A stretch of DNA of 64,000 bases, from assembly GCF_000024205.1 (NCBI RefSeq), contig NC_013216.1, forward strand, positions 558,001-622,000. The letters run 5' to 3'. The notes under the pieces are model-generated. The model was not told where the DNA came from, searched no databases, and was given only the letters and a program-made list of their open reading frames with translations. The position numbers were made by a program, and so were the translations under genes. The DNA comes from Desulfofarcimen acetoxidans DSM 771 (GTDB lineage: Bacteria; Bacillota; Desulfotomaculia; Desulfotomaculales; Desulfofarciminaceae). This document shows, piece after piece, positions 11,812 through 26,070 of the stretch; the first letter of the stretch is position 1; each line of letters begins with the position of its first letter.

Positions 11812-12765
11812 TTAAACAGTCTTAAAGTAATCCGGATATAAAACTCGCCCAATTTCTGCGATACCATCCAATAACCGCATGGTGGGACGTGATACCAGTG
11901 CCTCTGGCACCAAGAAAACCTGGTGGTTTTGTATTGCCTTGATGGCCTGGTAACCGGGTCGCAGATATATTTCTTCTTCTCTGGTCTTGTTCATTTCACC
12001 TTTTTGCACAAGGTATACATCAATGTCCCTAGCTTTGGCCAGAAGCCTTTCCTGACCATATGAGGCAATGGTGCTGCCCGGTCTCACCGCTTTAGCATCA
12101 ATCGCCACATTAATGGCCCCGGCCTTTTCCAAAATAAAAGCGGCGATTGAGTCCGGAGTGCAGGTTGTTATGTCCTTAGTTGTCTCAAAGAACACTTTCT
12201 TTCGCTCTTGCTGGGGTATTTTGGCCACCACGTCCCCAATTTTCTTTAATTGGCTGTTAAATTGATCTACCAGTTCGCCGGCTTCTTTTTCCTTTCCTGT
12301 TAGTTTGCCTAGTTTTTTCAGGTACTGAAGAAATTGATCAACATTCTCCGGGTACAGGACCGCAACGGGAATACCCGCGGTTTCCAATTTATTTACAAAA
12401 TCCGGATAATTGTTGGCAATAAAAGTTCTGATAAGCACCAGGTCCGGCTTGGCTGCAATGAGCTTTTCAGCGTCTTCCCGGTAGCTGAAGGACTGTTTTT
12501 TCAGAGCAGAGGGCGGGAAGGACTCGCTGTCGGAAACCCCAATAATTTCATCATTTAGCCCCAGAGAATAAAGGTTTTCCGTATGCCCGGTGTAAAGTGA
12601 TATAATTCTCTTCGCCGGTTCTTTTAGCTTTACTTCCTTACCCAAATCGTCTACCACCATAATATTGTCGGGTGTTGACGCGGGCTTGGTTTGGGCGCAT
12701 CCGGCCAGTATGGTAATTATGAAGATTACTAGAAAAACAGAAATAATTTTGGATTGCTTATTCAT
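11812..12765 (-). CDS. btuF: Corrinoid/iron-type ABC substrate-binding lipoprotein
   Basis: 317 residues with a lipoprotein signal: hydrophobic core then LAGC at about residues 20-23, so Cys23 should be lipidated. The mature part has the FecB/BtuF fold (LGKEVKLKEPAKRIISLYTG, ENLYSLGLNDEIIGVSD, ATGIP-like and DGIAEIGRVLYPDYF ends). BtuF rather than siderophore binding is inferred from the cobalamin riboswitches and the cbi genes in the same operon. It lies 13 bp after the ATPase gene. Confidence 0.82.
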   Translation of the reverse strand: MNKQSKIISVFLVIFIITILAGCAQTKPASTPDNIMVVDDLGKEVKLKEPAKRIISLYTGHTENLYSLGLNDEIIGVSDSESFPPSALKKQSFSYREDAEKLIAAKPDLVLIRTFIANNYPDFVNKLETAGIPVAVLYPENVDQFLQYLKKLGKLTGKEKEAGELVDQFNSQLKKIGDVVAKIPQQERKKVFFETTKDITTCTPDSIAAFILEKAGAINVAIDAKAVRPGSTIASYGQERLLAKARDIDVYLVQKGEMNKTREEEIYLRPGYQAIKAIQNHQVFLVPEALVSRPTMRLLDGIAEIGRVLYPDYFKTV

Positions 12766-12778
12766 GATACTTCTCCTT

Positions 12779-13573
12779 TTATTCCAGATCGGGAAGCAGT
12801 GTCAGATTATACTTGCCGGTAACCGCATGTTTCTTTATTTCTACCTGAACATGGAAAACCTTATTTATCATTTCTTCGTTAAAAACAAGGTTTGCCGGAC
12901 CCTCGCAAATCACTCGGCCTTTATCCATGTATACTAAATATTCGCAAAACATGCCGGCAAAGTTTAAATCATGCAGTACGGCGATTACCGTAACTGCCTT
13001 TTCCGTATTTAGTTTCTTAATTAGTTTAAGCAACTCCAATTTGTGGGAAATATCCAGATTAGATGTAGCTTCGTCCAGGAACAATACTTGTGGGGTTTGA
13101 GCCAGAGCACGGGCCAGGAGCACCCGTTGTCTCTCTCCGCCGCTTAAGCTGGTAATGGCTTTTTGTGCGTGTTCTAAAACACTGCAATGTTCCATACAAT
13201 TGTATACAATCTCCAGGTCTTTGTGAGAAAGCCTGCCCATGCGTCCCAGATGAGGTTTTCGCCCCATCATTACAACTTCCAGCACAGAAAAGGGAAAGTT
13301 AATTGAGCAGTTTTGTGGCACGACGGCGAAACTGCGGGCTATGTGCCGGCGGCTGCAGGAACTCAATTCCTTGCCGTTCCAGGTGATATGGCCGGAGGAA
13401 GGCTTCAGCACACCACACATAATATTGATCAAGGTTGTTTTGCCGCTGCCGTTAGGCCCGAGAATGCCGTAAAAACCTCCCTCACGAATATCAAGGCTGA
13501 CTTCCTGAAGTGCGGTGTACTTTCCATAACACAGGGTCAGGCTGTCAGTTTTTATCAGAACCCCTTGTTTCAA
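12779..13573 (-). CDS. btuD: BtuD/FecE-type ABC ATPase
   Basis: 264 residues: Walker A GILGPNGSGKTTLIN (about 35-49), Q-loop VVPQNCSINFPFSVLEVVMMGRKP region, signature LSGGERQRVLLARAL, Walker B VLFLDEATSNLD and switch His AVLHDLNFA. This is the FepC/BtuD importer subfamily. The gene sits 8 bp downstream of the permease and 13 bp upstream of the binding protein, giving a normal C-D-F importer order. Cobalamin specificity is inferred from context only. Confidence 0.9.
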   Translation of the reverse strand: MKQGVLIKTDSLTLCYGKYTALQEVSLDIREGGFYGILGPNGSGKTTLINIMCGVLKPSSGHITWNGKELSSCSRRHIARSFAVVPQNCSINFPFSVLEVVMMGRKPHLGRMGRLSHKDLEIVYNCMEHCSVLEHAQKAITSLSGGERQRVLLARALAQTPQVLFLDEATSNLDISHKLELLKLIKKLNTEKAVTVIAVLHDLNFAGMFCEYLVYMDKGRVICEGPANLVFNEEMINKVFHVQVEIKKHAVTGKYNLTLLPDLE

Positions 13574-13581
13574 AGTTCCTC

Positions 13582-14649
13582 CTAATACATTTGTTTTTTT
13601 GTTTTAATTTTAAAAATATAACAGAAAAACGGGCCACCCAGCAGGGTGGTCAGAACACCCACCGGAATCTCCGCAGTCAGCAGGTTTCTGGCGATGGTAT
13701 CCGCTCCGCTAAGAAGAAGCGCCCCTCCCAGCGCTGATGCGGGGATCAGTATTCTGTGATCCGGCCCCACAATCATGCGCATCAGGTGAGGGACGATTAA
13801 CCCTACAAAGCCGATTATTCCGGAAATCGAAACACAGGCCGCGGTAATCATGGAAGAAGTAATCAGGAGAATAGTAATGACCTTTCCGTCATCAATACCC
13901 AGTTGCCTGGCGGAGCTGACTCCCAGACTCAAGATGTTCAGATCATCTGCGTAATAATAACAGATTAGTAATCCGGCTGCGACAGGGGGCAGGCACAATA
14001 ATACATGATGCCAGCCCCTGGAAGCAAAGCTCCCCATCAGCCAGAATACAATCGACCCGACTCCTTCGCCGGCCATGCTTTTTAAGAAGCTGACAGCTGC
14101 GGACAGTATGGCGCTGACAATAACCCCCGAGAGGATCAGGTTGGTTACTGCCAGTGTGCCGTTAACCAGGGCGAGGCTGTACACGGCTCCCAGAGCAACA
14201 ATAGCCCCTGCAAAAGCAAAAAGGGGCACGGTCAGCATAGCTAAACTTCCGGGAAGGAAAATGCCGAAAAATATGGCCAGCGCAGCCCCGAAAGCCGCGC
14301 CGGTGGATACACCGAGGGTATAGGGATCAGCCAGAGGGTTTACCAGGAGACCTTGTAGGACTGCCCCGGCAGTAGCCAGCCCGGCTCCCACCAGAACAGC
14401 CGATAATATTCTGGGCAACCTGATATCCAGTATTACTGCCCGGTGAATATCGTCCAAGCCGGCAACTGTCTTGCTGTCAGCCGACAAAAGAGAAAAAATG
14501 ATTCTGGTTATCTCCCAAGGGGGTATTTTGATAACGCCCAGGCCGGTAAAGATAAGGCAGCCGGTGACCAGGAAAATAACCAGTATAATCAGCACCAGAA
14601 ATCTTCGTTTTTCTTTTTTTCTGTGAGACAGAATTAATTCATGCTGCAT
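13582..14649 (-). CDS. btuC: BtuC/FecCD-type ABC permease
   Basis: 355 residues, about ten membrane segments. Family motifs: RLPRILSAVLVGAGLATAGAVLQG near residues 99-122, NPLADPYTLGVSTGAAFGA, and the C-terminal GLIVPHLMRMIVGPDHR. First gene of the BtuCDF-like set, about 100 bp downstream of cbiK. A lysine/arginine-rich tail (KRRF) precedes the first membrane helix. Substrate by context: cobalamin, cobinamide or another corrinoid. Confidence 0.9.
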   Translation of the reverse strand: MQHELILSHRKKEKRRFLVLIILVIFLVTGCLIFTGLGVIKIPPWEITRIIFSLLSADSKTVAGLDDIHRAVILDIRLPRILSAVLVGAGLATAGAVLQGLLVNPLADPYTLGVSTGAAFGAALAIFFGIFLPGSLAMLTVPLFAFAGAIVALGAVYSLALVNGTLAVTNLILSGVIVSAILSAAVSFLKSMAGEGVGSIVFWLMGSFASRGWHHVLLCLPPVAAGLLICYYYADDLNILSLGVSSARQLGIDDGKVITILLITSSMITAACVSISGIIGFVGLIVPHLMRMIVGPDHRILIPASALGGALLLSGADTIARNLLTAEIPVGVLTTLLGGPFFCYIFKIKTKKQMY

Positions 14650-14751: not shown

Positions 14752-15699
14752 CTATTTTTCTTCACCGGCAGGCTTTGAATTAAGTTCATTCATCGCTTGT
14801 TTTATACGATTCATGTAAATGTTTTGAATCTCCTTATTTTCGCCAAGACCGTGAAGATAGCTATCCACTGCAAAACCTTCGGCTTTCAGCTGGCTCGTAT
14901 GCGAATCTTTCTCTTCACCTGCCATGTCGTTATTGGCATGGTCGCCGGCTACAAGCATAAACGGAATCAAAGTAATTTTTTTGATATTATTAGCTTTTAA
15001 TTGCGGAATTACTTCCTCCAGCGTCGGCGTTCCTTCCACCGTATATACATAGGTGTTTTTAAAGCCCAGCTCGTTTATTGTGTGCTGCAGTACTGTATAA
15101 TAGGCATTGGCCGGATGAGGCGTTCCGTGTGCCAGCACGAGAAGCGCTTCATCGTTTTTCATTGAAGACGGTAATTGTGTTTTTAGTGCTTCCAGTGCAG
15201 TGATAAAATCATTTGGCTCGTTTTCTTGTCCCATATAGTACAAGAGGGGAAGACCGCACGAGATCTTTTTAAAAGAATTGTCGTTTTTGTATTGGTCTAC
15301 CACTTTTTTAATGTAATCGTATTCCACGCCTGGAATTATATTCAACATTTGCACCACAACAGTAGTATAGCCGTCATTTTTTAATTTTTGTAAGGCTTGC
15401 TCCGGTGTATCTACCTCAATTCCATCGCGTTCTTTCAAGACTTTAATAATCGTATGGGAACTGAAAGCTCGTCTAACATCCCAGCCTTTAAATTCTTCTT
15501 TAGCTCTGTTCTCCACCGCTTCAATTGTAAGCTTGCGGGTATCTTCATAAGTGGTTCCGAAGCTAACGATCAAAATGGCTTTTTTCTCGGTTTCCGGGTT
15601 AGTGTTTTGTGCGGTAGGATTTTGTTTGCCTGTATTGCTGCACCCCATCAGTAAAAATAATACAAGTATTACGCTGCTCAAACTAATGGCCCGTTTCAT
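14752..15699 (-). CDS. cbiK: Exported sirohydrochlorin cobaltochelatase CbiK (lipoprotein)
   Basis: Inserts Co(II) into sirohydrochlorin in anaerobic cobalamin synthesis. The mature part matches CbiK: KKAILIVSFGTTYEDTRKLTIEA near residues 39-61, and the two metal-site histidines in LVLAHGTPHPANAYY and MLVAGDHANNDMAGEE. Unusually it begins with a lipoprotein signal (ISLSSVILVLFLLMGC, Cys at about residue 20) and a linker rich in Asn/Thr, so it should act outside the membrane. Exported CbiK forms are known in Desulfovibrio. ATG with AAGGAGG 8 nt before it; that SD can be masked by a leader hairpin. First gene after two tandem cobalamin riboswitches. Confidence 0.92.
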   Translation of the reverse strand: MKRAISLSSVILVLFLLMGCSNTGKQNPTAQNTNPETEKKAILIVSFGTTYEDTRKLTIEAVENRAKEEFKGWDVRRAFSSHTIIKVLKERDGIEVDTPEQALQKLKNDGYTTVVVQMLNIIPGVEYDYIKKVVDQYKNDNSFKKISCGLPLLYYMGQENEPNDFITALEALKTQLPSSMKNDEALLVLAHGTPHPANAYYTVLQHTINELGFKNTYVYTVEGTPTLEEVIPQLKANNIKKITLIPFMLVAGDHANNDMAGEEKDSHTSQLKAEGFAVDSYLHGLGENKEIQNIYMNRIKQAMNELNSKPAGEEK

Positions 15700-15762: not shown

Positions 15763-15831
15763 AAGTATTGATATTATTAGATACAAGTCCAACACCCCCT
15801 TATCCACGCAAGGCCTAACGTTGGGGAAAAC

Positions 15832-16068
15832 AGGCAGGTTTCCTGGCTCCGGGTCATTGCTGCCTTACGCCTTCCCAGGTCAATACCCAGTGACATAAGA
15901 TTGGAACATTCCTTTTCAGAATAAGTGGCAAGCAATTTTGCCGGTTCCAAATGGATTGTTCCCTTTTCCTTTTGTAAGGCAGCTCACCGTTACAGTGGCG
16001 GGACCGCGCCGGACTCGCACCGGCTTCCCTTTTAACCCCTGTCCCTCGGGAAGGGGCACCTGTTTTCC
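15832..16068 (-). ncRNA. Cobalamin riboswitch, proximal copy upstream of cbiK
   Basis: Read on the minus strand it contains the class hallmarks in order: GAAGCCGGTGCGAGTCCGGC then GCGGTCCCGCCACTGTAA (16030-15985 region), and the 3' B12-box GAGCCAGGAAACCTGCC near 15850-15832. Aptamer only; no intrinsic terminator between it and cbiK, consistent with the SD-masking hairpin downstream. Confidence 0.93.
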
Positions 16069-16080
16069 AAATTAAAAACA

Positions 16081-16115: not shown

Positions 16116-16175
16116 AGCGTCTGATGAATACAGAAATCTAAGACCGCACACTTTTCCCCGGAAAGCGTTTTGGAT

Positions 16176-16350
16176 AATGCCAGCCAGGTCTCCTGACTTA
16201 TGGGAAATAGCGCCATACTCCGCCTTCCCGGGAATATTCCCAGTGGCTTATCGGGAGTTGGCTGCCCATTTACAGTGGCCGGACCGTCCAGGATTCTCAC
16301 CTGGTTCCCTGTGCCTTTCCTAAAAGGCAACTGGCATTAGACTGATTGAG
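16176..16350 (-). ncRNA. Cobalamin riboswitch, distal copy
   Basis: On the minus strand: a GGTGAGAATCCTGGACGGTCCG-like core, GGCCACTGTAAATGGGCAGCC, CCACTGGGAATATTCCCGGGAAGG and the B12-box GTCAGGAGACCTGGC near 16200-16183. It differs clearly in sequence from the proximal copy, so the pair is not a recent duplication. Followed by the terminator at 16081-16115. Confidence 0.92.
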
Positions 16351-16480: not shown

Positions 16481-16537
16481 CAACACAGCCATAACGTGAT
16501 ATTATGAATAATCAAAAAATAATTAGGAATATAAATT

Positions 16538-16711
16538 CATAACCGGAGCAGGGAGCTTTATCTGAATGATAAAGCTTAAAAGAGAAGCCGGTGCGAGTCC
16601 GGCGCGGTCCCGCCACTGTAATGGGTAGGAGCCTCACACTATGTCACTGGGACAGGATATTCCCGGGAAGACGTGAGGTTTACGATGATCCTAAGCCAGG
16701 AAAACTGCCTT
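16538..16711 (+). ncRNA. Cobalamin riboswitch upstream of the intrinsic-factor-like/ECF operon
   Basis: Class hallmarks in order: GAAGCCGGTGCGAGTCCGGC, GCGGTCCCGCCACTGTAATG, CACTGGGACAGGATATTCCC with GGGAAG, and the 3' B12-box CTAAGCCAGGAAAACTGCC (about 16690-16709). It is followed by a 10-codon frame and an intrinsic terminator at 16786-16826, so control is likely by premature termination. It is the third cobalamin riboswitch within 900 bp. Confidence 0.95.
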
Positions 16712-16756
16712 GTTCTTTATTGCCACATATCTACGTGTGATAGGAGGTGGTTTTTA

Positions 16757-16789
16757 ATGTTTATGCCATTTTTGCCGGCATCGCCATAA
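16757..16789 (+). other. 10-codon open frame with perfect SD inside the riboswitch leader
   Basis: TAGGAGGTGG (16741-16750) lies 6 nt before ATG at 16757, which opens the frame MFMPFLPASP and a stop at 16787-16789. The stop overlaps the first base pairs of the terminator stem. It may be a leader peptide whose translation affects the terminator, or a gene remnant. Confidence 0.4.
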
Positions 16790-16826
16790 AATCCCGATTC
16801 ACTTGTGGATCGGGATTTTTATTTTT
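16786..16826 (+). terminator. Riboswitch expression-platform terminator
   Basis: Stem AAATCCCGAT/ATCGGGATTT (16788-16797, 16807-16818 region) followed by TTTTTATTTTTGT, about 110 bp before the SLH-protein start. Confidence 0.85.
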
Positions 16827-16934
16827 GTATTGGTTGCAATTAAGTTTAAAATTATTTGTTTTATTAAATATTGCTAATTTTAGAGATAATTAAAGATGTT
16901 GCGAACTTGTTATGGGAAAGGTGGATATTAGATA

Positions 16935-19900
16935 ATGAGGAGAAAAAACACAAAATTACAATTCATAACGTTATCAGTAATGATATTTTTTATCCTGAAC
17001 ATTATTCAGTTTTCCGGATTAACCAGCCAGTCAGCAAACGGGCAAGAGGCTGTATATACTTCTGCTGAAATGGCGGCAAAAGCAGTTGATTTTATTAACG
17101 ATAAGTATAAGGCGGGAGAGAAAATTGATGGCTATACCGCTTATGTGCTGGCTATGGCCGGGCAGGATTTGTCAAGTGAGAAATGGAGCATAAACGGCAC
17201 TAGTTTAAGAAGTGAAATCGAAAACTTAGCCGACTTAATGGGAAATAATGTTAATTTAATAAATTATGTTTGCTTAACCCAGAATAATGACGGCAGTTTC
17301 GGCCCTTATGCCAATGAATATGGGACAAAGGTGCCGCTGCAGGCTTTGTCGACAGTTAAAGAAGACATTACTGTCGGCAGCGATGTTTACAATCAGGTGC
17401 AGAGTGCCATTGATAATGCTGTAAACTTTTTTAAGACAAAATATCAAAACGGCGGCATGACCTATGATGTAAACGGTTGGAGTTTCGATTACCGCTGTGT
17501 TGAGGCACTGGCAAAATCGGGGGAGGACCTGTCAGTGGGCGGTTGGGTCTATAATGGTGTATCCCTCAAAGACAGCATAATGCTTTCTGCCAATAGTACG
17601 GCGCGGTCCATTAAAAAGGATTCATCTGTACAGGACGCTGTGTATCTGTCCAAAGAACTTACGGCTCTTTATGCTGTTGACAAAGCTTCAACCGACATTG
17701 ATGTTCTGGCCGGTGCGATTACAGCCAAACAAAATGGTGACGGCAGTTTCGGGACAAATATGTTTGACCATATTATGGTTCTGAATGCTCTCGGAAAAGC
17801 TGGAGCAATCAGTAATATTGACCAGACAAAGGCATTTAATTTTATTGATAATTTGAAAGAAATTCATAAGAACTCCTGGGGTCAAGACGCCGGTGTAGCC
17901 TGGGGCTCACAGTACACAAGCGGTTTTGAAGAGTCTGATACCACTGCCCAGGTTATTACGGCACTCAGTTATTTTTCTGAGGCGAAGAACGAAGGCAGCG
18001 ATGTTTATAAGACTATACAGGGTGGTCTTACCTATCTTAACGACGTGCAAGATGCTGACACGGCGGCCATAGTCCGTATAGAAGGTGACAGCACCTTTTC
18101 CTCTGCTGAAACACTGCTGGCACTCAAGTCACTGGGATATACTTTTGACCAGTATACAGGGACTGCTTCAAAATGGGTGAAAAATTCCCGGACGAAAACT
18201 ATAACTCAGTGCATAAAGGCAGTGAACAAATGGGGTGACGCCGGACGCCTGGACAGGCTGATTAGACTTTTGGCAGACCGGCAAAAAGCAGAGGATCCGG
18301 GTAAAGGTTCTTTTGAAAACAGCGTATACAGCGATATGTGGGCTTATTTAGCCCTTGGTGAAGCCGGAAAGCTTGACGGGCTTAACACCGGCGATGCTAA
18401 AACGTATATTTTATCTAAGCAGGATACTTCCGGTTCCTGGGGAGAAATCTTTGATCAATACTACCCTGATTTCCTTTCCACAGCACAGGCTATCCGGTCG
18501 CTCAGCTATCTGCCGGAAGCCGGTGAGGCAGATGTTCAGGCAGCAATAAATAAAGGTCTGAATTATCTGAAAACCCTTCAGCGGGATGACGGCAGCGTTA
18601 GCGCAAAAGATGATGACCCTGCTGTAGATAATTCTGAGCTAATCATAACTTTAAATAGATTGAATATAGATCCACAAGGTGCTGAATGGACAAAAACTGT
18701 TGATGGCAAAAAATTTACTCCGGTATCTTATCTGATGAATAACACAATGAATGCCGATGGCAGCTTTGGCGCATCTAAAAATGTTTTTGGAGCCACTGAA
18801 GCACTTTATGCATATTTAATTCAGGACGGTACCGGTAACCCTGGCGGAGACGGTCCAGGAGGCGGCTCGTCTGAGAACCGGTGCAGTGTTAATATCGCGA
18901 TAGTGGGAAAGGACGACGAAATTATTTACAGACCGGGCAGTGTTATCCTGGATAAAACTTCAAAATGGGGTATTACTGCTATGGGCGCACTCCATGCCAC
19001 AGGTTTGAGCTATGTAGGCGACAGCAGTTTTGTTAAGAGCATTGATGGGCTGGCTAACAGCGGCATGAACGGGTGGATGTACAGTGTTAACGGGGTTGTG
19101 CCTATGACTACTGCTTCTGATAAAGTGGTTAAAGAGGGGGATAGGGTAATCTGGTGGTATAGTACGGATATGAATTCATCAGGACCTAGTTGGGACAGTC
19201 TCTTAAAAGGATCTGCAGGTGCCGGGGGCAATCAGTCGGCAGCTGCTTCATCAACTAGCCTCATTGAGCAAAATAAAGAACTTCCAGATGCATTGCAGGT
19301 TTCGGAAAAGGCTCTGGCAGCGCTGGAGCAGATAGCCCTGCTGCTTAATCCTCAAGACATTGAAAAAGAAAATACATTGGATGCATCGGTTCAGGACGAC
19401 GAGATTAATAATGTAATTGTAGTAGGCAGCAGGCAGCCTTTAAATCTGGCTTTGCTCAAAACATTAAAAAAGGAACTGGATCAGAATGAGGTACAGTTAA
19501 CACAAAAAGTTGAAGCGGACAGTGGAGCTGTCCTGTTGGATGCCAAAGAGGAACTGGCTCTGGTTATTCCGGCTAAGTCACTTAATAAGGATATGGAAAT
19601 AAACGTTAAGGAAGCAGCTGCCGGCAATCAGCAGGAAACTGCCGCACCGTCAGGTTTTCGTCAGGTGTCAGCAATTTACGATTTTGGTCCCAAAGATACT
19701 GTTTTTACTATGCCGGCGACATTAACCTTTAAGCTGGTTATGCCTCCTTTGGTTAAGCCGGATAGACTGGTTTTGGCCTATTACGATAAAGTTGCCGGCA
19801 AGTGGGTATCTGTCCCTGCTGTTGTGGATTTGGATAAAGGTTTAGTCCTGACCAAGCTGCGGCATTTAGGACAATATGCGGTTTTTGCCCGCGAGTCTTT

Positions 19901-20441
19901 GAAGACCTTTGCTGATGTAAACGAAACTTCTTCTAGTTGGGCTAAAGATTATATAGAAAATCTGGCCGGGGCCGGAATTGTTGACGGTATAGATGCTACA
20001 CACTTTGAACCGTCAAGAAAGGTGACCAGGGCAGAATTGACCAGTTTATTGGTTAAAGCCTTAGGCATATCCACAGATCAAAGCTCTGCTATCTCTCTGA
20101 AGGATGTTCAAGCCGATGATTGGTACGCGGGGGCGGTTGGGGCAGCTCAGGCAGCCGGTTTGATTACCGGCTATGAAGACGGCACTTTCCGGCCGGGCAA
20201 CACTGTTAGCCGTGAAGAACTGGCGGTAATTCTGGTGCGCGCAATGAAACTTGAGTCTGACCAGGAAAAAATGTGGTTTGCCGACATAGATAAGATTAAC
20301 TCCTGGGCCAGAGACAGTGTGTTCACAGCTTCATCAAAAGGTCTCATAAAAGGTTTTCCTGATGGAACTTTTCGTCCTGATGTTGCTGCCGGCCGGGATG
20401 AGTGTGCGGTTATAATCTTTAGGATGTTGAATGAATATTAA
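16935..20441 (+). CDS. Cell-surface intrinsic-factor/transcobalamin-like protein with SLH anchor
   Basis: 1168 residues. Signal peptide about 1-38. Residues ~40-635 carry repeated alpha/alpha-toroid (prenyltransferase-like) motifs QNNDGSFG (~115), KQNGDGSFG (~265), KQDTSGSWG (~494), RDDGSVS (~549), ADGSFG (~606). After a Gly/Pro linker, residues ~647-758 form a DUF4430 (transcobalamin-like C-terminal) domain ending in GDRVIWWYS. A beta-sandwich region (~780-985) precedes three SLH domains (~990-1168) for S-layer/cell-wall attachment. Toroid plus DUF4430 is the domain order of animal intrinsic factor and transcobalamin. It follows a cobalamin riboswitch and heads an ECF-transporter operon, so I infer corrinoid capture at the cell surface. 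AAAGGTGG lies 10 nt before ATG. Confidence 0.9.
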   Translation: MRRKNTKLQFITLSVMIFFILNIIQFSGLTSQSANGQEAVYTSAEMAAKAVDFINDKYKAGEKIDGYTAYVLAMAGQDLSSEKWSINGTSLRSEIENLADLMGNNVNLINYVCLTQNNDGSFGPYANEYGTKVPLQALSTVKEDITVGSDVYNQVQSAIDNAVNFFKTKYQNGGMTYDVNGWSFDYRCVEALAKSGEDLSVGGWVYNGVSLKDSIMLSANSTARSIKKDSSVQDAVYLSKELTALYAVDKASTDIDVLAGAITAKQNGDGSFGTNMFDHIMVLNALGKAGAISNIDQTKAFNFIDNLKEIHKNSWGQDAGVAWGSQYTSGFEESDTTAQVITALSYFSEAKNEGSDVYKTIQGGLTYLNDVQDADTAAIVRIEGDSTFSSAETLLALKSLGYTFDQYTGTASKWVKNSRTKTITQCIKAVNKWGDAGRLDRLIRLLADRQKAEDPGKGSFENSVYSDMWAYLALGEAGKLDGLNTGDAKTYILSKQDTSGSWGEIFDQYYPDFLSTAQAIRSLSYLPEAGEADVQAAINKGLNYLKTLQRDDGSVSAKDDDPAVDNSELIITLNRLNIDPQGAEWTKTVDGKKFTPVSYLMNNTMNADGSFGASKNVFGATEALYAYLIQDGTGNPGGDGPGGGSSENRCSVNIAIVGKDDEIIYRPGSVILDKTSKWGITAMGALHATGLSYVGDSSFVKSIDGLANSGMNGWMYSVNGVVPMTTASDKVVKEGDRVIWWYSTDMNSSGPSWDSLLKGSAGAGGNQSAAASSTSLIEQNKELPDALQVSEKALAALEQIALLLNPQDIEKENTLDASVQDDEINNVIVVGSRQPLNLALLKTLKKELDQNEVQLTQKVEADSGAVLLDAKEELALVIPAKSLNKDMEINVKEAAAGNQQETAAPSGFRQVSAIYDFGPKDTVFTMPATLTFKLVMPPLVKPDRLVLAYYDKVAGKWVSVPAVVDLDKGLVLTKLRHLGQYAVFARESLKTFADVNETSSSWAKDYIENLAGAGIVDGIDATHFEPSRKVTRAELTSLLVKALGISTDQSSAISLKDVQADDWYAGAVGAAQAAGLITGYEDGTFRPGNTVSREELAVILVRAMKLESDQEKMWFADIDKINSWARDSVFTASSKGLIKGFPDGTFRPDVAAGRDECAVIIFRMLNEY

Positions 20442-20446
20442 TATGT

Positions 20447-20471
20447 GTTGCGGCATGTTTCATGCCGCAAC
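20447..20471 (+). terminator. Intercistronic hairpin (11-bp stem)
   Basis: GTTGCGGCATG-TTT-CATGCCGCAAC just after the SLH-protein stop. The following sequence (GGATTAAATAAAAATT) is only weakly U-rich, so it is probably a partial terminator or processing stem lowering expression of the downstream genes. Confidence 0.5.
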
Positions 20472-20537
20472 GGATTAAATAAAAATTATTTGTGTTTAGA
20501 CTTCTTTATAACCGGCTTAGTTGGTTTGTGATGAGGA

Positions 20538-21269
20538 GTGGGGATTCTGAAAAAGAAAATAATCTATATTACACTAACACTGGTGATTTTAGCAGCTATT
20601 CTGGGCCCGTCTATTTATGCAAATAAATTCAGCAGAAACCAGATTGCTGCACAATTCAAAAATAACACAACCACCCAGACGGGTGAAAGCAAGTCGCTGC
20701 CGGCTAGCGATGCGTCAAAAGCCGGAGAGCAAAAAACAGAGGCAAAACAAGAAGCGGAGCTAAAAACAGGTGATGCTATGCCGTTTCAAGAAAGCGAAGC
20801 AACGGACAAAGATATTAAAACAAAGCCTGTTGATAAAAATAACAATTCAGGGCTTAGCGAAAATAAAGATAGCGCCGGACAGTTAAATAAAAATGCTGCG
20901 GCGCCGGACAGTTCACAGGAGATTTCCCGCACTGTTGGCATGGCTGTAGTTGGCAAGGAGGGGGAATTGCTCTATGCGCCTGGCAGCGTTACCGTAACCT
21001 CCAAAAATATATGGGACACCACGGCGTTGGGTGCTTTGGACGCTACCTCCCTGCCTTATAAAGTGTCCAGCGGGTTCTCAGGTTTTGTTGAGGAAATTGC
21101 CGGTTGCCGTAATAAAGGACAGTCAGGCTGGATGTATATGGTTAACGGTGAAGTTCCGGGAGTTTCCGCCAGCCAAAAACAGGTGAAAACGGGAGATAAA
21201 GTTATCTGGTGGTACAGTAAGAGTATGGATGCTCCAATGCCCGATTGGGATGCTTTGTTAAAAAAATAA
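20538..21269 (+). CDS. Membrane-anchored DUF4430 (transcobalamin beta-domain-like) protein
   Basis: 243 residues: Lys-rich start, one hydrophobic segment (IIYITLTLVILAAILG) without an obvious cleavage motif, a charged low-complexity linker of about 100 residues (rich in Lys, Glu, Asp, Asn), then a DUF4430 domain (~130-243) with GWMYMVNGEVP and VIWWYSKSM, very like the one in the SLH protein. It has no toroid. The GTG at 20538 overlaps the SD (GAGGAG 20533-20538); an in-frame CTG at 20547 is 8 nt from that SD and may be the real start. It probably sits on the outer face of the membrane and hands ligand to the ECF transporter encoded downstream. Role inferred. Confidence 0.85.
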   Translation: MGILKKKIIYITLTLVILAAILGPSIYANKFSRNQIAAQFKNNTTTQTGESKSLPASDASKAGEQKTEAKQEAELKTGDAMPFQESEATDKDIKTKPVDKNNNSGLSENKDSAGQLNKNAAAPDSSQEISRTVGMAVVGKEGELLYAPGSVTVTSKNIWDTTALGALDATSLPYKVSSGFSGFVEEIAGCRNKGQSGWMYMVNGEVPGVSASQKQVKTGDKVIWWYSKSMDAPMPDWDALLKK

Positions 21270-21308
21270 TGATGTTAGTATATTATTGAATTTGTTGGGG
21301 GGAAAATT

Positions 21309-22685
21309 ATGTTGCTCAGAAGTTACTCCGGCTGCGTTGCTGTCATTTTGTTTGTTTTATTGGTGTTTCCCGCTCTGGCGCAGGCACAGCAGTCTGCTGA
21401 TATAAAGCCTTCGATGGACAAAGCGGTGAAATACCTGTTGGATTATGAAAAAGAGCAAAATAGGCCTCTGTCTTTGTGGAGCTACACAGCTATGGCCGCG
21501 GCCGGGCAAAACCTGGATAATACTAAAGTTGAGCAGGCTTTGCTGCAGCAGCTTAACGTATCGGAAGCTACTGCTGAATACGGCCTCCTGGTTATTGCCT
21601 TAGTGGCTGCCGGGGAGAATCCATATGATTACCGGGGGCAGAATTTTATTGGGAAAATTCAGTCTGCCTGTCTTCCTGACGGAAAGTTTGCGGATAATAT
21701 CGACGGCAGCGGACAGGGGGACGGTGGGGAACAAGTATTAGCCAATGCACACATCTGGGCAGTGCTGGCCCTGCATGCCGCCGGGGCGGACAGTCAGGAT
21801 GCCGCCCGTCAAAAAGAGTGGCTGATTTCCCAGCAGCATGAAGATGGCGGTTTTAACTGGTGTGTCAGCGACAAGAAATCGGATGTCGATTCTACCGGTA
21901 TGGCCTTAATGGCTCTGGGTGCTTTGGGAGAGAGAGAAGACAGCATAACAGTGAAAAAAGCATATGCATACCTAAAAAGCGTGCAGGAAAGTGACGGTGG
22001 CTTTGCTTCCTGGGGAGCGTCTAATGCCGAATCCTGCGGTATGGTTATAGAAGGCTTAACAGCGGTTGGGATTAAACCGGCAGCTGAAGAAATGAATAAT
22101 GCAGGTGGCAATCCGGTTGCGGCTATGCTTAATTACCAGTTAACTAACGGCAGCTTTGCTCATATAAAAGGCAGCGGAGCCAATGAGATAGCGACTTATC
22201 AGGCTTTAATGGCTTTATCGGATGAATATTATGGTAAATGTATTTACCAGCGGCTGGCGGACAAAAGTTTGGGAAATCAGGTTCCTGCTGTGCGAAAAAT
22301 TAAATTTCGGGTAGATGAAAATGATTACGAAGTTCAAGCGAACGGGCAAACCAGCTTGGAAGAAGCCGATGTCGCGCCTTTTTTGCTGAATGGGCGAACC
22401 TATGTGCCGCTGCGTTATCTGGCACAGGCTTTAGTTATACCGGAGGCAGGTATTTTGTGGTCGCCTGAAGAGCAAACGATAACACTTAACCATAATGGCA
22501 TTACTGTCAAGCTGGCTGTCGGCAGCAATCTCATATATGTTAATAATGTTGCTTTATCGCCAATGGATATTGTGCCGGTAATCAAAAACGATCGTGTTTT
22601 TCTACCGGCCCGTTATGTAGCTGAGTCCTTTGGCTGTCAAGTAGCCTGGCAGGAAGCAACACAAACGGTTATTATTACACAGTAG
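21309..22685 (+). CDS. Secreted alpha/alpha-toroid protein with C-terminal stalk domains
   Basis: 458 residues. Signal peptide ~1-25 (cleavage near ALAQA). Residues ~30-320 show toroid repeats: LPDGKFADNIDG, QQHEDGGFNWCVSD, VQESDGGFASWGASN and LTNGSFAHIKG, each followed by a helix with ALMAL or similar, as in intrinsic factor/squalene-cyclase-like barrels. The last ~130 residues are a stalk (copper-amine-oxidase N-like) domain: LNGRTYVPLRYLAQAL and NDRVFLPARYVAESFG. It lacks DUF4430, which the previous gene supplies. ATG preceded by GGGGGG. In the riboswitch-led operon, 17 bp before ecfT. Confidence 0.87.
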   Translation: MLLRSYSGCVAVILFVLLVFPALAQAQQSADIKPSMDKAVKYLLDYEKEQNRPLSLWSYTAMAAAGQNLDNTKVEQALLQQLNVSEATAEYGLLVIALVAAGENPYDYRGQNFIGKIQSACLPDGKFADNIDGSGQGDGGEQVLANAHIWAVLALHAAGADSQDAARQKEWLISQQHEDGGFNWCVSDKKSDVDSTGMALMALGALGEREDSITVKKAYAYLKSVQESDGGFASWGASNAESCGMVIEGLTAVGIKPAAEEMNNAGGNPVAAMLNYQLTNGSFAHIKGSGANEIATYQALMALSDEYYGKCIYQRLADKSLGNQVPAVRKIKFRVDENDYEVQANGQTSLEEADVAPFLLNGRTYVPLRYLAQALVIPEAGILWSPEEQTITLNHNGITVKLAVGSNLIYVNNVALSPMDIVPVIKNDRVFLPARYVAESFGCQVAWQEATQTVIITQ

Positions 22686-22710
22686 ATTTTTTTGCTAAGG
22701 AGTGTTGGGT

Positions 22711-23640
22711 GTGCGGGAAAAATTGTTTTATCAGGAAAAAGGCCTCTTCATACAAAGCCTGCACCCGTTTACATCTGTAGTTTATCTGGGTACGCTGCTA
22801 TTCCTGTCCTTAGCCTTTAACAACCCGCTTTATTTACTCGGAATATTAATAATGATTGTTTTAGCGATATGGGCGGCGGATGGTTGGAAGACCTGGGAAA
22901 CATATATGATAATAAGTTTGCCCATGATATTGTTGATTATTGTCATAAACCCCTTAATTAACAGCGCCGGAAAAACTGTTTTATGGTATGGTCCTCATAT
23001 TCCGTTTTGGGGCCGCCTTAATATTTCTTTGGAAGCTATATGCTACGGAGCTGCTATGAGCGTCAGGCTTTTGGATATTATCAGTTTGTTTTGCCTGTAT
23101 AATATAATCGTTCACCCGGATAAAGTCTTGAACCTGTTTTCCAGATTTGCAGGTAAATCCACGCTGGTAATATCCTTGTCTACCAGGCTGTTTCCGAGCA
23201 TGTTCAGGGAACTGGAGAATGTTAAAGATGTCCAGCGGCTGCGAGGTGTTGACTTCAGACAAGGGACAATCAAGGAGAGAATTAAGAAACATTTTTCTTT
23301 GATTAATATATTGCTTTTGTCTTCTCTGGAAAACTCACTGGGCATAGCAGAATCTATGCAGGCTCGCGCCTTTGGCAGCGGGCCTCGCTCCGTTTACTCC
23401 GCACATATGCTGAGACCGAGAGATATACTGTGCCTGAGCGGCAGTTCTCTGGCACTGGGAATAAGTATCTGGGGATTGCTGCGCGGTTTTGGTATGTATA
23501 ATTTTTACCCGCAGCTGGATTTTTTAATCAATGATCCGGTAACTGTAGTTGTGTTGGCTGCTGTTATGTTAAGTTTATCCGTTCCGGTATTGTTGAGTTG
23601 GGGGTGGCAGTATTGCCGGTTTATGAAATCAAAGATCTGA
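22711..23640 (+). CDS. ecfT: ECF transporter transmembrane (T) component
   Basis: Energy-coupling-factor T subunit linking the ATPases to the substrate-binding S component. About 309 residues with five to six membrane segments and the Ala-Arg-Gly-type coupling motif AESMQARAFGSG near residues 212-223. The open frame reaches back to GTG 22702, but AAGGAG (22697-22702) is 8 nt from the GTG at 22711, which I prefer. It overlaps the ATPase gene. The T, A, A and S functions all lie together, so this is a dedicated rather than shared ECF module. Confidence 0.9.
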   Translation: MREKLFYQEKGLFIQSLHPFTSVVYLGTLLFLSLAFNNPLYLLGILIMIVLAIWAADGWKTWETYMIISLPMILLIIVINPLINSAGKTVLWYGPHIPFWGRLNISLEAICYGAAMSVRLLDIISLFCLYNIIVHPDKVLNLFSRFAGKSTLVISLSTRLFPSMFRELENVKDVQRLRGVDFRQGTIKERIKKHFSLINILLLSSLENSLGIAESMQARAFGSGPRSVYSAHMLRPRDILCLSGSSLALGISIWGLLRGFGMYNFYPQLDFLINDPVTVVVLAAVMLSLSVPVLLSWGWQYCRFMKSKI

Positions 23641-25358
23641 TTTATTATTATCCTGAGGCTGAAAAACCTGCCCTGGACAGGATTAGTCTTGATATTGAAG
23701 AGGGTGAGTTTGTTTTGGTGGCCGGTGGGTCCGGTTCGGGTAAGTCTTCCCTGGCCAGGGTCTTGTCCGGGCTGCTGCCGGACTTTTATGGCGGGCGTTT
23801 TGGTGGCAAGGTGTTGTTTAAGGGAACTGATTTGCGCAGTATGGACCGGCGTAAGCTGGCGCGAAATGTAGGCATGGTCTTTCAGGATCCGGAGAAACAA
23901 TTAATAATGACAGGTGTCGAGGCTGAAATTGCTTTTGGTCTGGAGAATCTTGGTTTACCAAAAAAAGAAATGATGCGCCGTGTGGCTGAGGTGATTGGTT
24001 TTCTGGATTTAGCGGCAATAAAGCGGGAGTTTACCGCTGATCTGTCCGGCGGGCAGAAACAGAAACTGGCCCTGGCTTCTGTTTTGGCTATGCAGCCGCA
24101 GGTCTTAATTTTAGATGAGCCTACTTCTCAGCTGGATCCTGTGGCAGCGGAAGATTTTTTTAATCTAGTTAGAAGATTAAATGAAGAGATGGGTTTTACT
24201 GTTGTCTTAATTGAGCAAAGGCTGGAAAGGTGCTATCATTTGGCTGACCGGGTATTGCTTATGGATGGCGGAAAAATTGTATGCGCGGGCAGGCCGGATC
24301 AGGTGGTTTCCTGGTCGGTTCAAAGAGATAAATTTTTTCTTCCCCCGGTAGCCAGGTTCTTTTCTCTAATGGGTTTTTCCAGTGTTCCGGTAACCATCAA
24401 AGACGGTAGAAAGAAATTGCGAATATCATTGAAAGGAAAGCATTATTCAGGTCAGGCGGATAAGTGTTTGATGAATACTCTGAAGAAAAATGTTCCGGCC
24501 AAAGCGGAAAATAGTATGCCTCCGCTGGCTGAAGTGAAAAATTTATGGTTTACCTATTCCAATGGCAAGGAAGCATTGCAAAACATCAATTTACAAATCC
24601 GGGCCGGTGATTTTGTAGTTGTCCTGGGGGAGAATGGAGCCGGCAAATCAACTTTGTTAAAAACAATGACGGGTCTTTTACAACCGGGGCGCGGCAAGGT
24701 CTTATACCGTGGGGCTGACTTTAACAGAAATAAAGAGCAGTATATGGGCCGAAAGGTAGCCTATCTTTCTCAAAACCCTAACGACTATCTTTTTCAACGC
24801 ACTGTGGAAGATGAACTTATGTTTACCTTGAAGAATTGCCAGATGGAGGACGACGGTATTGTTGATAAACTACTGGCGGATTTATATATAGATTCTTACA
24901 GGAAGGTGAACCCGCGCGATTTAAGCTGTGGAGAGAGACAGCGGGTGGCCCTGGCTTCGGTGCTGGTAACCAGGCCGGAACTTTTGGTGCTGGATGAACC
25001 GACCAGAGGAGTAGATTATCAAATTAAAGCCGATTTGGGCAATTATTTGTCCGGCCAGGCCAAAGCCGGGGTAGGAGTGCTTTTAGTTACCCATGATGTG
25101 GAATTTGCCGCCGAATATGCTTCACGGGTAATTATGATGTTTGACGGTCAAATAATTTGTGAGGGCACAAAACATGAGGTTTTAGGCACGTCAGTATTCT
25201 ACTCCCCGCAAATCTGCAAACTTTGCACCGGCTATTTTGACAATATAGTGACATTTCAGGAAGCTTTGCAAAAAATCGGGCCTTTGTTATCCTGCCGGGC
25301 AAATTGCCTTGATCAAGATAAAGGGAGTGATGGTTTTGAACTCAGACACATACAATAA
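23613..25358 (+). CDS. ecfA: ECF transporter ATPase with two fused ATP-binding domains
   Basis: One chain holding both ECF ATPases. Domain 1: Walker A GGSGSGKSSLARVL (~33-46), signature LSGGQKQKLALASVLA, Walker B VLILDEPTSQLD. Domain 2: GENGAGKSTLLKTMTG (~345), signature LSCGERQRVALASVLV (second Gly replaced by Cys), Walker B LLVLDEPTRGVD. The frame is open from TTG 23598; TTG 23613 (giving MPVYEIKDLIYYYP) is 5 nt after GGGGTGG and fits the family start. It overlaps ecfT by 28 nt and the S gene by 23 nt, implying coupled translation. Fused EcfAA' is typical for dedicated ECF systems. Confidence 0.91.
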   Translation: MPVYEIKDLIYYYPEAEKPALDRISLDIEEGEFVLVAGGSGSGKSSLARVLSGLLPDFYGGRFGGKVLFKGTDLRSMDRRKLARNVGMVFQDPEKQLIMTGVEAEIAFGLENLGLPKKEMMRRVAEVIGFLDLAAIKREFTADLSGGQKQKLALASVLAMQPQVLILDEPTSQLDPVAAEDFFNLVRRLNEEMGFTVVLIEQRLERCYHLADRVLLMDGGKIVCAGRPDQVVSWSVQRDKFFLPPVARFFSLMGFSSVPVTIKDGRKKLRISLKGKHYSGQADKCLMNTLKKNVPAKAENSMPPLAEVKNLWFTYSNGKEALQNINLQIRAGDFVVVLGENGAGKSTLLKTMTGLLQPGRGKVLYRGADFNRNKEQYMGRKVAYLSQNPNDYLFQRTVEDELMFTLKNCQMEDDGIVDKLLADLYIDSYRKVNPRDLSCGERQRVALASVLVTRPELLVLDEPTRGVDYQIKADLGNYLSGQAKAGVGVLLVTHDVEFAAEYASRVIMMFDGQIICEGTKHEVLGTSVFYSPQICKLCTGYFDNIVTFQEALQKIGPLLSCRANCLDQDKGSDGFELRHIQ

Positions 25359-26070
25359 TCAGGCAAACCCTTTAATGAAAATTTTATTCCCTTTTTCCTT
25401 GCTGGTAATTCTGGGTTTGTTATTTGCCAGCATCAGGCAGGATAGTTTTTTACTTAAACAGGGTTGGGGATTGCTTTCAGCGGAAATTATTGTTATAGCG
25501 CTGGCTTTTTGCTACTGGGGATTTGAGAAGAGCAGAATATCAGCCCGCGAGATATCTTTTATTGCTGTGTTGGGCACAATTGCAGCCGTGAGTCGTGTTC
25601 CCTTTGCCGCTTTGCCGGGGGTGCAGCCTGTTACGTTTATAGTTATCATATCCGGTTATGTGTTTGGGTCACGGGCCGGGTTTATGGTCGGCTCCACAGC
25701 GGCCCTTGTTTCTAACCTTTTTTTGGGCCAAGGACCCTGGACACCCTGGCAAATGTTTGTCTGGGGTTTGGCCGGTGCGTCAGCCGGTTTAATTAAAAAG
25801 ATTATTCCCAAAATCGGGACCAGGAGTTTGATAATTTTCTGCTTCTGCTGGGGTTATCTTTACGGTTGGATTATGAATCTGTGGTTTTGGACAGCTTTTG
25901 TTCAGCCCTTAAGCTGGAAGTCTTTTGTTCTCACCTATGCCGCAAGCTTTTGGTATGAAACTTTTCACGCCGTAGGAAATGTTATTTTTTATCTTCTTTT
26001 AGGCACTGGTTTTATTGAAATATTAGAGCGCTTTCGCAGAAAGCTGAAAATAGAGATTATTGATGAGTGA
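25336..26070 (+). CDS. ECF transporter substrate-binding (S) component, probably for a corrinoid
   Basis: About 244 residues, six or more membrane segments. The motif FIAVLGTIAAVSRVPFAALPGVQ (its key part SRVPFAALPG) followed by ISGYVFGSRAGFMVG and a GPWTPWQMFVWGLAG loop is typical of ECF S components. AAGGGAG lies 8 nt before TTG 25336. Established knowledge: B12-riboswitch-linked ECF systems (CbrT family) import cobalamin. Here the riboswitch plus transcobalamin-like partners argue for cobalamin or cobinamide, but the sequence alone does not fix the ligand. Last gene of the operon; I see no strong terminator in the following 190 bp. Confidence 0.85.
   Translation: MNSDTYNNQANPLMKILFPFSLLVILGLLFASIRQDSFLLKQGWGLLSAEIIVIALAFCYWGFEKSRISAREISFIAVLGTIAAVSRVPFAALPGVQPVTFIVIISGYVFGSRAGFMVGSTAALVSNLFLGQGPWTPWQMFVWGLAGASAGLIKKIIPKIGTRSLIIFCFCWGYLYGWIMNLWFWTAFVQPLSWKSFVLTYAASFWYETFHAVGNVIFYLLLGTGFIEILERFRRKLKIEIIDE

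Follow-up and report, generated by a model that had tools for sequence, protein, structure and literature searches.

The window analysed here, a stretch of 64,000 nucleotides from the anaerobic sulfate reducer Desulfofarcimen acetoxidans DSM 771, carries a cobalamin riboswitch followed by six genes for surface proteins and an energy-coupling factor (ECF) importer, an operon whose probable role in corrinoid uptake is the subject of this analysis. Coordinates are positions within the window, except for a second cluster of related genes, which is numbered on the whole genome. The operon consists of the following features:

16534-16726, + strand: cobalamin riboswitch aptamer (RF00174), operon leader (Rfam 111.8 bits, E 3.4e-27)
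16788-16819, + strand: terminator-like hairpin of 14 pairs with a T tail, between the riboswitch and the first gene
16935-20441, + strand: SLH-anchored secreted protein, 1168 amino acids (Pfam SLH three times, DUF4430, weak SQHop_cyclase_C)
20538-21269, + strand: membrane-tethered DUF4430 protein, 243 amino acids (hydrophobic N-terminal anchor, DUF4430 at 160-228)
21309-22685, + strand: secreted toroid protein, 458 amino acids (Pfam Prenyltrans toroid, C-terminal Cu_amine_oxidN1)
22702-23640, + strand: EcfT, CbiQ family (Pfam CbiQ; 34% identity to the EcfT of the second locus)
23598-25358, + strand: EcfA, fused double ATPase (two ABC_tran stretches, TIGR04520/TIGR04521)
25309-26070, + strand: ECF S component, CbrT family (Pfam ECF_trnsprt; PDB match 6fnp_A)

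The riboswitch matches its covariance model over the full length (model positions 1-189), scoring 111.8 bits against a gathering score of 31.5, and the terminator-like hairpin, which stands 5' of the first ATG at 16935, is its probable expression platform. All six genes lie on the + strand between 16935 and 26070, spaced by 96, 39 and 16 bases and then by two overlaps. The SLH protein contains toroid-like halves at about residues 40-635, a DUF4430/SLBB beta-grasp domain at 652-746 and three SLH domains at 991-1165, and DUF4430 scores in the two window proteins that carry it are 52.4 and 60.5 bits, with a Pfam cut-off of 23.8. A first-pass annotation had described this riboswitch and gene order on one strand, and the open reading frames, the Rfam match and the Pfam domains are all as it stated. 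It had also given the SLH protein a single toroid; the toroid fold is there, but as about 600 amino acids predicted to form two tandem halves with 12-13 helices each. In the secreted toroid protein the toroid it named was confirmed, together with a Cu_amine_oxidN1 domain that it had overlooked.

The best PDB relative of the S component is CbrT (6fnp_A, E 1.9e-13), with the next S component (4hzu_S) following at E 0.83, and the CbrT-type ECF set in the window is complete, with EcfT and paired EcfA ATPases that are both contained in one chain. ECF-CbrT of Lactobacillus delbrueckii carries cobalamin and cobinamide, and hemin is no competitor (Santos 2018, PMC5997447).

Linkage to cobalamin riboswitches was surveyed at 80 named loci that encode S-component relatives and in about 60 DUF4430 regions of the same order, with a covariance model built on this genome's own riboswitches and with neighbouring genes annotated by profile hidden Markov models. 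Upstream counts were limited to the 64 of the 80 named loci with at least 7 kb of upstream sequence, and at these loci a same-strand cobalamin riboswitch was found upstream in 53, with DUF4430 (62/64), toroid (58/64) and EcfT (63/64) genes as partners. A riboswitch lies within 5.2 kb upstream of 27 of the 31 toroid+DUF4430 genes of the order, compared to about 1% expected by chance (21 riboswitches per 4.55 Mb, same strand, no more than 5.2 kb upstream of the gene). The neighbour survey that the first-pass annotation had proposed as a check on its reading found a riboswitch at most toroid+DUF4430 genes and most S-component loci. Because some genomes occur in both survey sets and related species do not count as independent, binomial probabilities overstate the significance of these counts, and taxonomic breadth is the stronger argument for linkage. 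The recurrent gene order is riboswitch, SLH+toroid+DUF4430 protein, membrane DUF4430 protein, an optional toroid protein, EcfT, EcfA and S component, and the operon was observed in Desulfotomaculum, Moorella, Syntrophomonas, Dethiosulfatibacter, Desulfosporosinus, Paenibacillus, Cohnella, Tumebacillus and Clostridium. By inspection of the sequence, some other riboswitches of the genome precede genes resembling CobT and CbiMNQO, as would suit an ordinary cobalamin regulon.

The predicted fold provides a further tie to B12. AlphaFold2 modelling of residues 38-770 of the window SLH protein with 16 homologues (mean predicted local distance difference test, pLDDT, 86.8; predicted template modelling score, pTM, 0.70) yielded about 25 helices in two toroid-like halves followed by a beta domain, giving the order toroid then beta-grasp, though with two toroid-like halves in the predicted models. 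A Foldseek search of this model against the PDB placed squalene-hopene cyclase at the top (E 2e-7) and transcobalamin, haptocorrin and intrinsic factor next (E 4e-7 to 2e-5). For a compact Paenibacillus homologue of 422 amino acids (mean pLDDT 88.7, pTM 0.69), transcobalamin, intrinsic factor and haptocorrin account for every one of the 15 best PDB matches (E 3e-10 to 6e-9), the class that follows starts at E 1e-4, and the isolated beta domain of human transcobalamin superposes on this model with a root-mean-square deviation (rmsd) of 2.9 Å over 104 columns. Haptocorrin is also found, at E 1e-6, with a profile built from the sequences of toroid+DUF4430 homologues. The membrane DUF4430 protein searched alone against the PDB yielded zero matches.

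Riboswitch linkage, the CbrT-family S component and the predicted fold of the compact homologue strongly support the corrinoid capture and import that the first-pass annotation had proposed, and we consider it highly probable, from sequence and models, that the operon encodes a riboswitch-controlled corrinoid (B12-type) scavenging chain of the Gram-positive cell. At low cellular cobalamin the riboswitch would let transcription through the terminator, and the S-layer-anchored toroid+DUF4430 protein, judging from homology and context, would capture corrinoids at the cell surface. Passage across the wall would fall to the membrane-tethered DUF4430 protein and the secreted toroid protein, possibly as two parts of a split carrier. 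Import would follow through the CbrT-type S component, served by the operon's own EcfT and fused EcfA, as the homology of this S component to ECF-CbrT suggests.

Several observations weigh against this reading. A riboswitch was not found at a few loci with the operon genes, including those of Lactobacillaceae and some metagenome-assembled genomes (MAGs), as confirmed with Rfam for several. The genome encodes cbiD (329 bits), and given CbiD the organism may make corrinoids itself. For the model of the window protein, transcobalamin comes narrowly behind squalene-hopene cyclase, TM-scores are low and rmsd is large, and the DUF4430 profile alone matches the PDB weakly (haptocorrin E 0.27, 3u7z E 0.03). 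Finally, each domain finds its counterpart, but the models fail to bring toroid and beta-grasp together in the closed form seen in cobalamin complexes (rmsd over the full length about 19-28 Å, about 19 Å for the compact homologue; pTM 0.69-0.70). The cause may be an open apo conformation or poor reliability of the modelled interface, and a pocket gripping B12 between the two domains is therefore putative.

A narrower form of the scavenging reading takes precursors or degraded corrinoids, cobinamide for example, rather than complete cobalamin as the natural cargo. Cobinamide is also carried by ECF-CbrT, related clusters contain genes that resemble cobyric acid synthase and CobA-type adenosyltransferase on inspection, and the genome has a biosynthesis gene of its own in cbiD; the sequence, however, gives nothing that separates such cargo from complete cobamides, and we regard this version as unlikely while still worth weighing. 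That heme or another non-corrinoid tetrapyrrole is imported, with the riboswitch present through cross-regulation, is distinctly improbable. For Lactobacillus sakei, an ECF-like system for heme is on record (Verplaetse 2020, as cited in PMC7872071), and no riboswitch was found with the Lactobacillaceae relatives of the operon, but the S component resembles CbrT, and ECF-CbrT shows no competition between hemin and cobalamin. Outside the lactobacilli the cobalamin riboswitch is usual, and the fold is that of the B12 carriers. The L. sakei heme operon is said to include DUF4430 proteins. Hardly credible is the proposal that the toroids are terpenoid-cyclase-like enzymes or general S-layer parts linked incidentally to the transporter. 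Squalene-hopene cyclases are indeed the strongest sequence matches of the toroid part, but full-length matches of the compact homologue to two-domain B12 carriers rank above the cyclases and the linkage to riboswitch and ECF genes is repeated across many genera.

The first-pass annotation knew of no described system of this kind, and here it did not stand. In 2007, Burroughs, Balaji, Iyer and Aravind delineated the SLBB superfamily, reported toroid+SLBB surface proteins of bacteria (with Desulfotomaculum and Moorella named), often with a second paralogous SLBB protein, in operons with a CbiO-like ATPase and a CbiQ-like protein, predicted B12 scavenging for these operons, and proposed the animal carriers as a transfer from Gram-positive bacteria (PMC1796856). 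Because toroid+SLBB/CbiO/CbiQ scavenging operons had already been predicted there, the window operon is a member of a predicted kind, with a probable function largely as the first-pass annotation had proposed, and the kind is not new. A surface toroid+SLBB protein, a second SLBB protein, CbiO and CbiQ stand in one operon in both cases, and the additions to the 2007 prediction are the riboswitch linkage, the CbrT-type S component and the S-layer (SLH) anchor: a text search of PMC1796856 returned zero occurrences of riboswitch or S-layer, and the S component is unnamed in the available part. Hosts of such operons were described there as tending to lack B12 synthesis genes (PMC1796856), whereas CbiD is present here. 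No experimental test of a Burroughs-type operon was found in the open-licence literature, itself incomplete.

The animal carriers intrinsic factor, transcobalamin and haptocorrin share the order of toroid then beta-grasp and are the top structural matches of the compact homologue. In contrast to them, the bacterial proteins are cell-anchored, the window protein has two toroid halves, other homologues have several DUF4430 domains, and the closed domain arrangement is not predicted in the bacterial models, whose ligand we infer. BtuG/BtuB of Bacteroides is an outer-membrane system in which BtuG is a beta-propeller lipoprotein; there is a likeness in that a surface protein would pass the corrinoid to an importer, but the putative capture protein of the window is toroid+DUF4430 and not a beta-propeller. 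Compared to ECF-CbrT of L. delbrueckii (PMC5997447), the S component is homologous and likewise goes with EcfT and EcfA, but the window operon has its own EcfT, a fused double EcfA and extracellular proteins, and the available part of the CbrT paper describes no such surface proteins.

Variants of the operon were also met in the survey. Loci of Secundilactobacillus and Lentilactobacillus (L141, L142, L160) carry the same gene set with zero Rfam cobalamin riboswitch matches, and these versions may have another ligand or another regulator. A Clostridium locus (L125) missed by our own covariance model has a weak Rfam riboswitch match. Two archaeal MAG bins (L116, L144; Aciduliprofundum / DHVE2) contain a DUF4430-EcfT-EcfA-S operon with the riboswitch undetected, a presence that transfer or a binning error may explain. 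In Calidifontibacillus oryziterrae (L170, 342-6533) a 2063-amino-acid SLH protein combines two toroids with ten DUF4430 matches and stands behind a cobalamin riboswitch.

Of the eight DUF4430 genes in the genome, a single contig of 4,545,624 bases, the window accounts for two and the stretch at 2.09-2.15 Mb for the other six. The region 2,078,000-2,151,000 (73 kb, 1.6% of the genome) holds 13 of the 21 genomic cobalamin riboswitches and a second complete ECF set, consisting of a DUF4430 membrane protein (2097362-2098771), EcfT, fused EcfA and an S component with 41% identity to that of the window. Two proteins of this second cluster carry cohesins:

2084156-2089621: SLH scaffoldin with four cohesins
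2137705-2139225: SLH protein with one cohesin

About ten dockerin-tailed secreted proteins are found in the same cluster, mostly with PQQ-type beta-propellers, DUF4430 or toroids, and in genome-wide searches every cohesin (5) and every dockerin (9) detected falls within 2,078,000-2,151,000. Not all of the dockerin genes lie directly behind a riboswitch. Among the 14 second-cluster proteins scanned with Pfam there were no glycoside hydrolase or carbohydrate-active families. These genes suggest, with reasonable though lesser probability than for the window operon, a corrinoid-harvesting surface complex encoded in a riboswitch-rich region, in which an S-layer scaffoldin would display dockerin-tagged toroid, DUF4430 and propeller proteins through cohesin-dockerin pairing and would feed the second CbrT-type ECF importer. 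Cellulosomes likewise pair dockerin proteins with an SLH scaffoldin that bears several cohesins, but the cargo here is DUF4430, toroid and propeller proteins amid cobalamin riboswitches and not, in the 14 proteins scanned, carbohydrate-active enzymes. That proteins which bind nutrients can carry dockerins has a precedent in anaerobic methanotrophic (ANME) archaea (PMC9012536). A system combining cohesins, dockerins and a cobalamin riboswitch was not found in the open-licence literature, subscription papers being outside the scope.

A syntenic copy of this arrangement exists in another class, in the MAG Peptococcaceae bacterium nzgw226 (genome G218, locus L136). The order there is riboswitch, cobalt-transport-like genes, riboswitch, two-cohesin SLH scaffoldin, SLH+propeller+DUF4430 protein, dockerin propeller (71% identical), DUF4430 membrane protein, EcfT, EcfA, S component, dockerin protein, CobQ-like gene and toroid+DUF4430+dockerin protein, and all four dockerins detected in this genome are on riboswitch-bearing contigs. 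In a further genome (G080), one contig carries toroid+DUF4430+dockerin, cohesin and dockerin-propeller genes with a riboswitch, and on another contig (C23) with dockerin/cohesin genes a riboswitch was not found. In UBA2203 (L134), a dockerin propeller adjoins a riboswitch and ECF genes. Among 399 genomes searched in the phylum, only one other yielded the dockerin propeller, and in most other genomes of the order the cohesin loci are not near cobalamin riboswitches. The cohesin-dockerin-cobalamin arrangement is therefore real and repeated, and limited to few lineages because most cohesin loci of the order lie away from such riboswitches.

The 2007 prediction that human B12 carriers descend from Gram-positive B12-scavenging surface proteins becomes, with these operons, a testable and widespread system of defined genes, present in the culturable genera Moorella, Paenibacillus, Desulfosporosinus and Clostridium. 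Such a system would give a B12 capture step to cells without an outer membrane. The cohesin-dockerin version, if true, is a new use of cellulosome architecture, for vitamin harvest instead of polymer degradation, and a cohesin-dockerin cobalamin regulon would be the most surprising part for specialists.

Further proteins related to the second cluster were noted. DUF4430 is fused to a PQQ-type beta-propeller, not a toroid, in L202 (9227-12043), in L205 (9910-13326) and in this genome (2091509-2094538), which suggests the propeller as an alternative DUF4430 partner with a putative propeller/beta-grasp ligand site. Kinship of the second-cluster propellers to BtuG was considered and is unsupported, their PDB sequence matches being BamB and PQQ enzymes. 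Small secreted proteins in L032 (703-1587) and L031 (13239-14114) show a conserved tryptophan within what faintly resembles a DUF4430 motif (hhalign probability 77 and 64), and the one in L032, directly upstream of a toroid+dockerin gene, could be part of a split carrier.

Beside the window operon, the divergent strand carries two tandem cobalamin riboswitches ahead of genes for a lipoprotein CbiK and BtuC, which the first-pass annotation had missed:

16166-16349, - strand: cobalamin riboswitch, first of the tandem pair (113.6 bits)
15816-16078, - strand: cobalamin riboswitch, second of the tandem pair (101.1 bits)
14752-15699, - strand: CbiK-family protein with a lipoprotein-type signal (LLMGC)
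13582-14649, - strand: BtuC (Pfam FecCD, NCBIfam)
12779-13573, - strand: BtuD-like ATPase (sequence inspection only)
11812-12765, - strand: BtuF-like lipoprotein (sequence inspection only)

The CbiK-family (sirohydrochlorin cobaltochelatase) protein at 14752-15699 is a chelatase homologue that, from its signal, appears to be extracytoplasmic.

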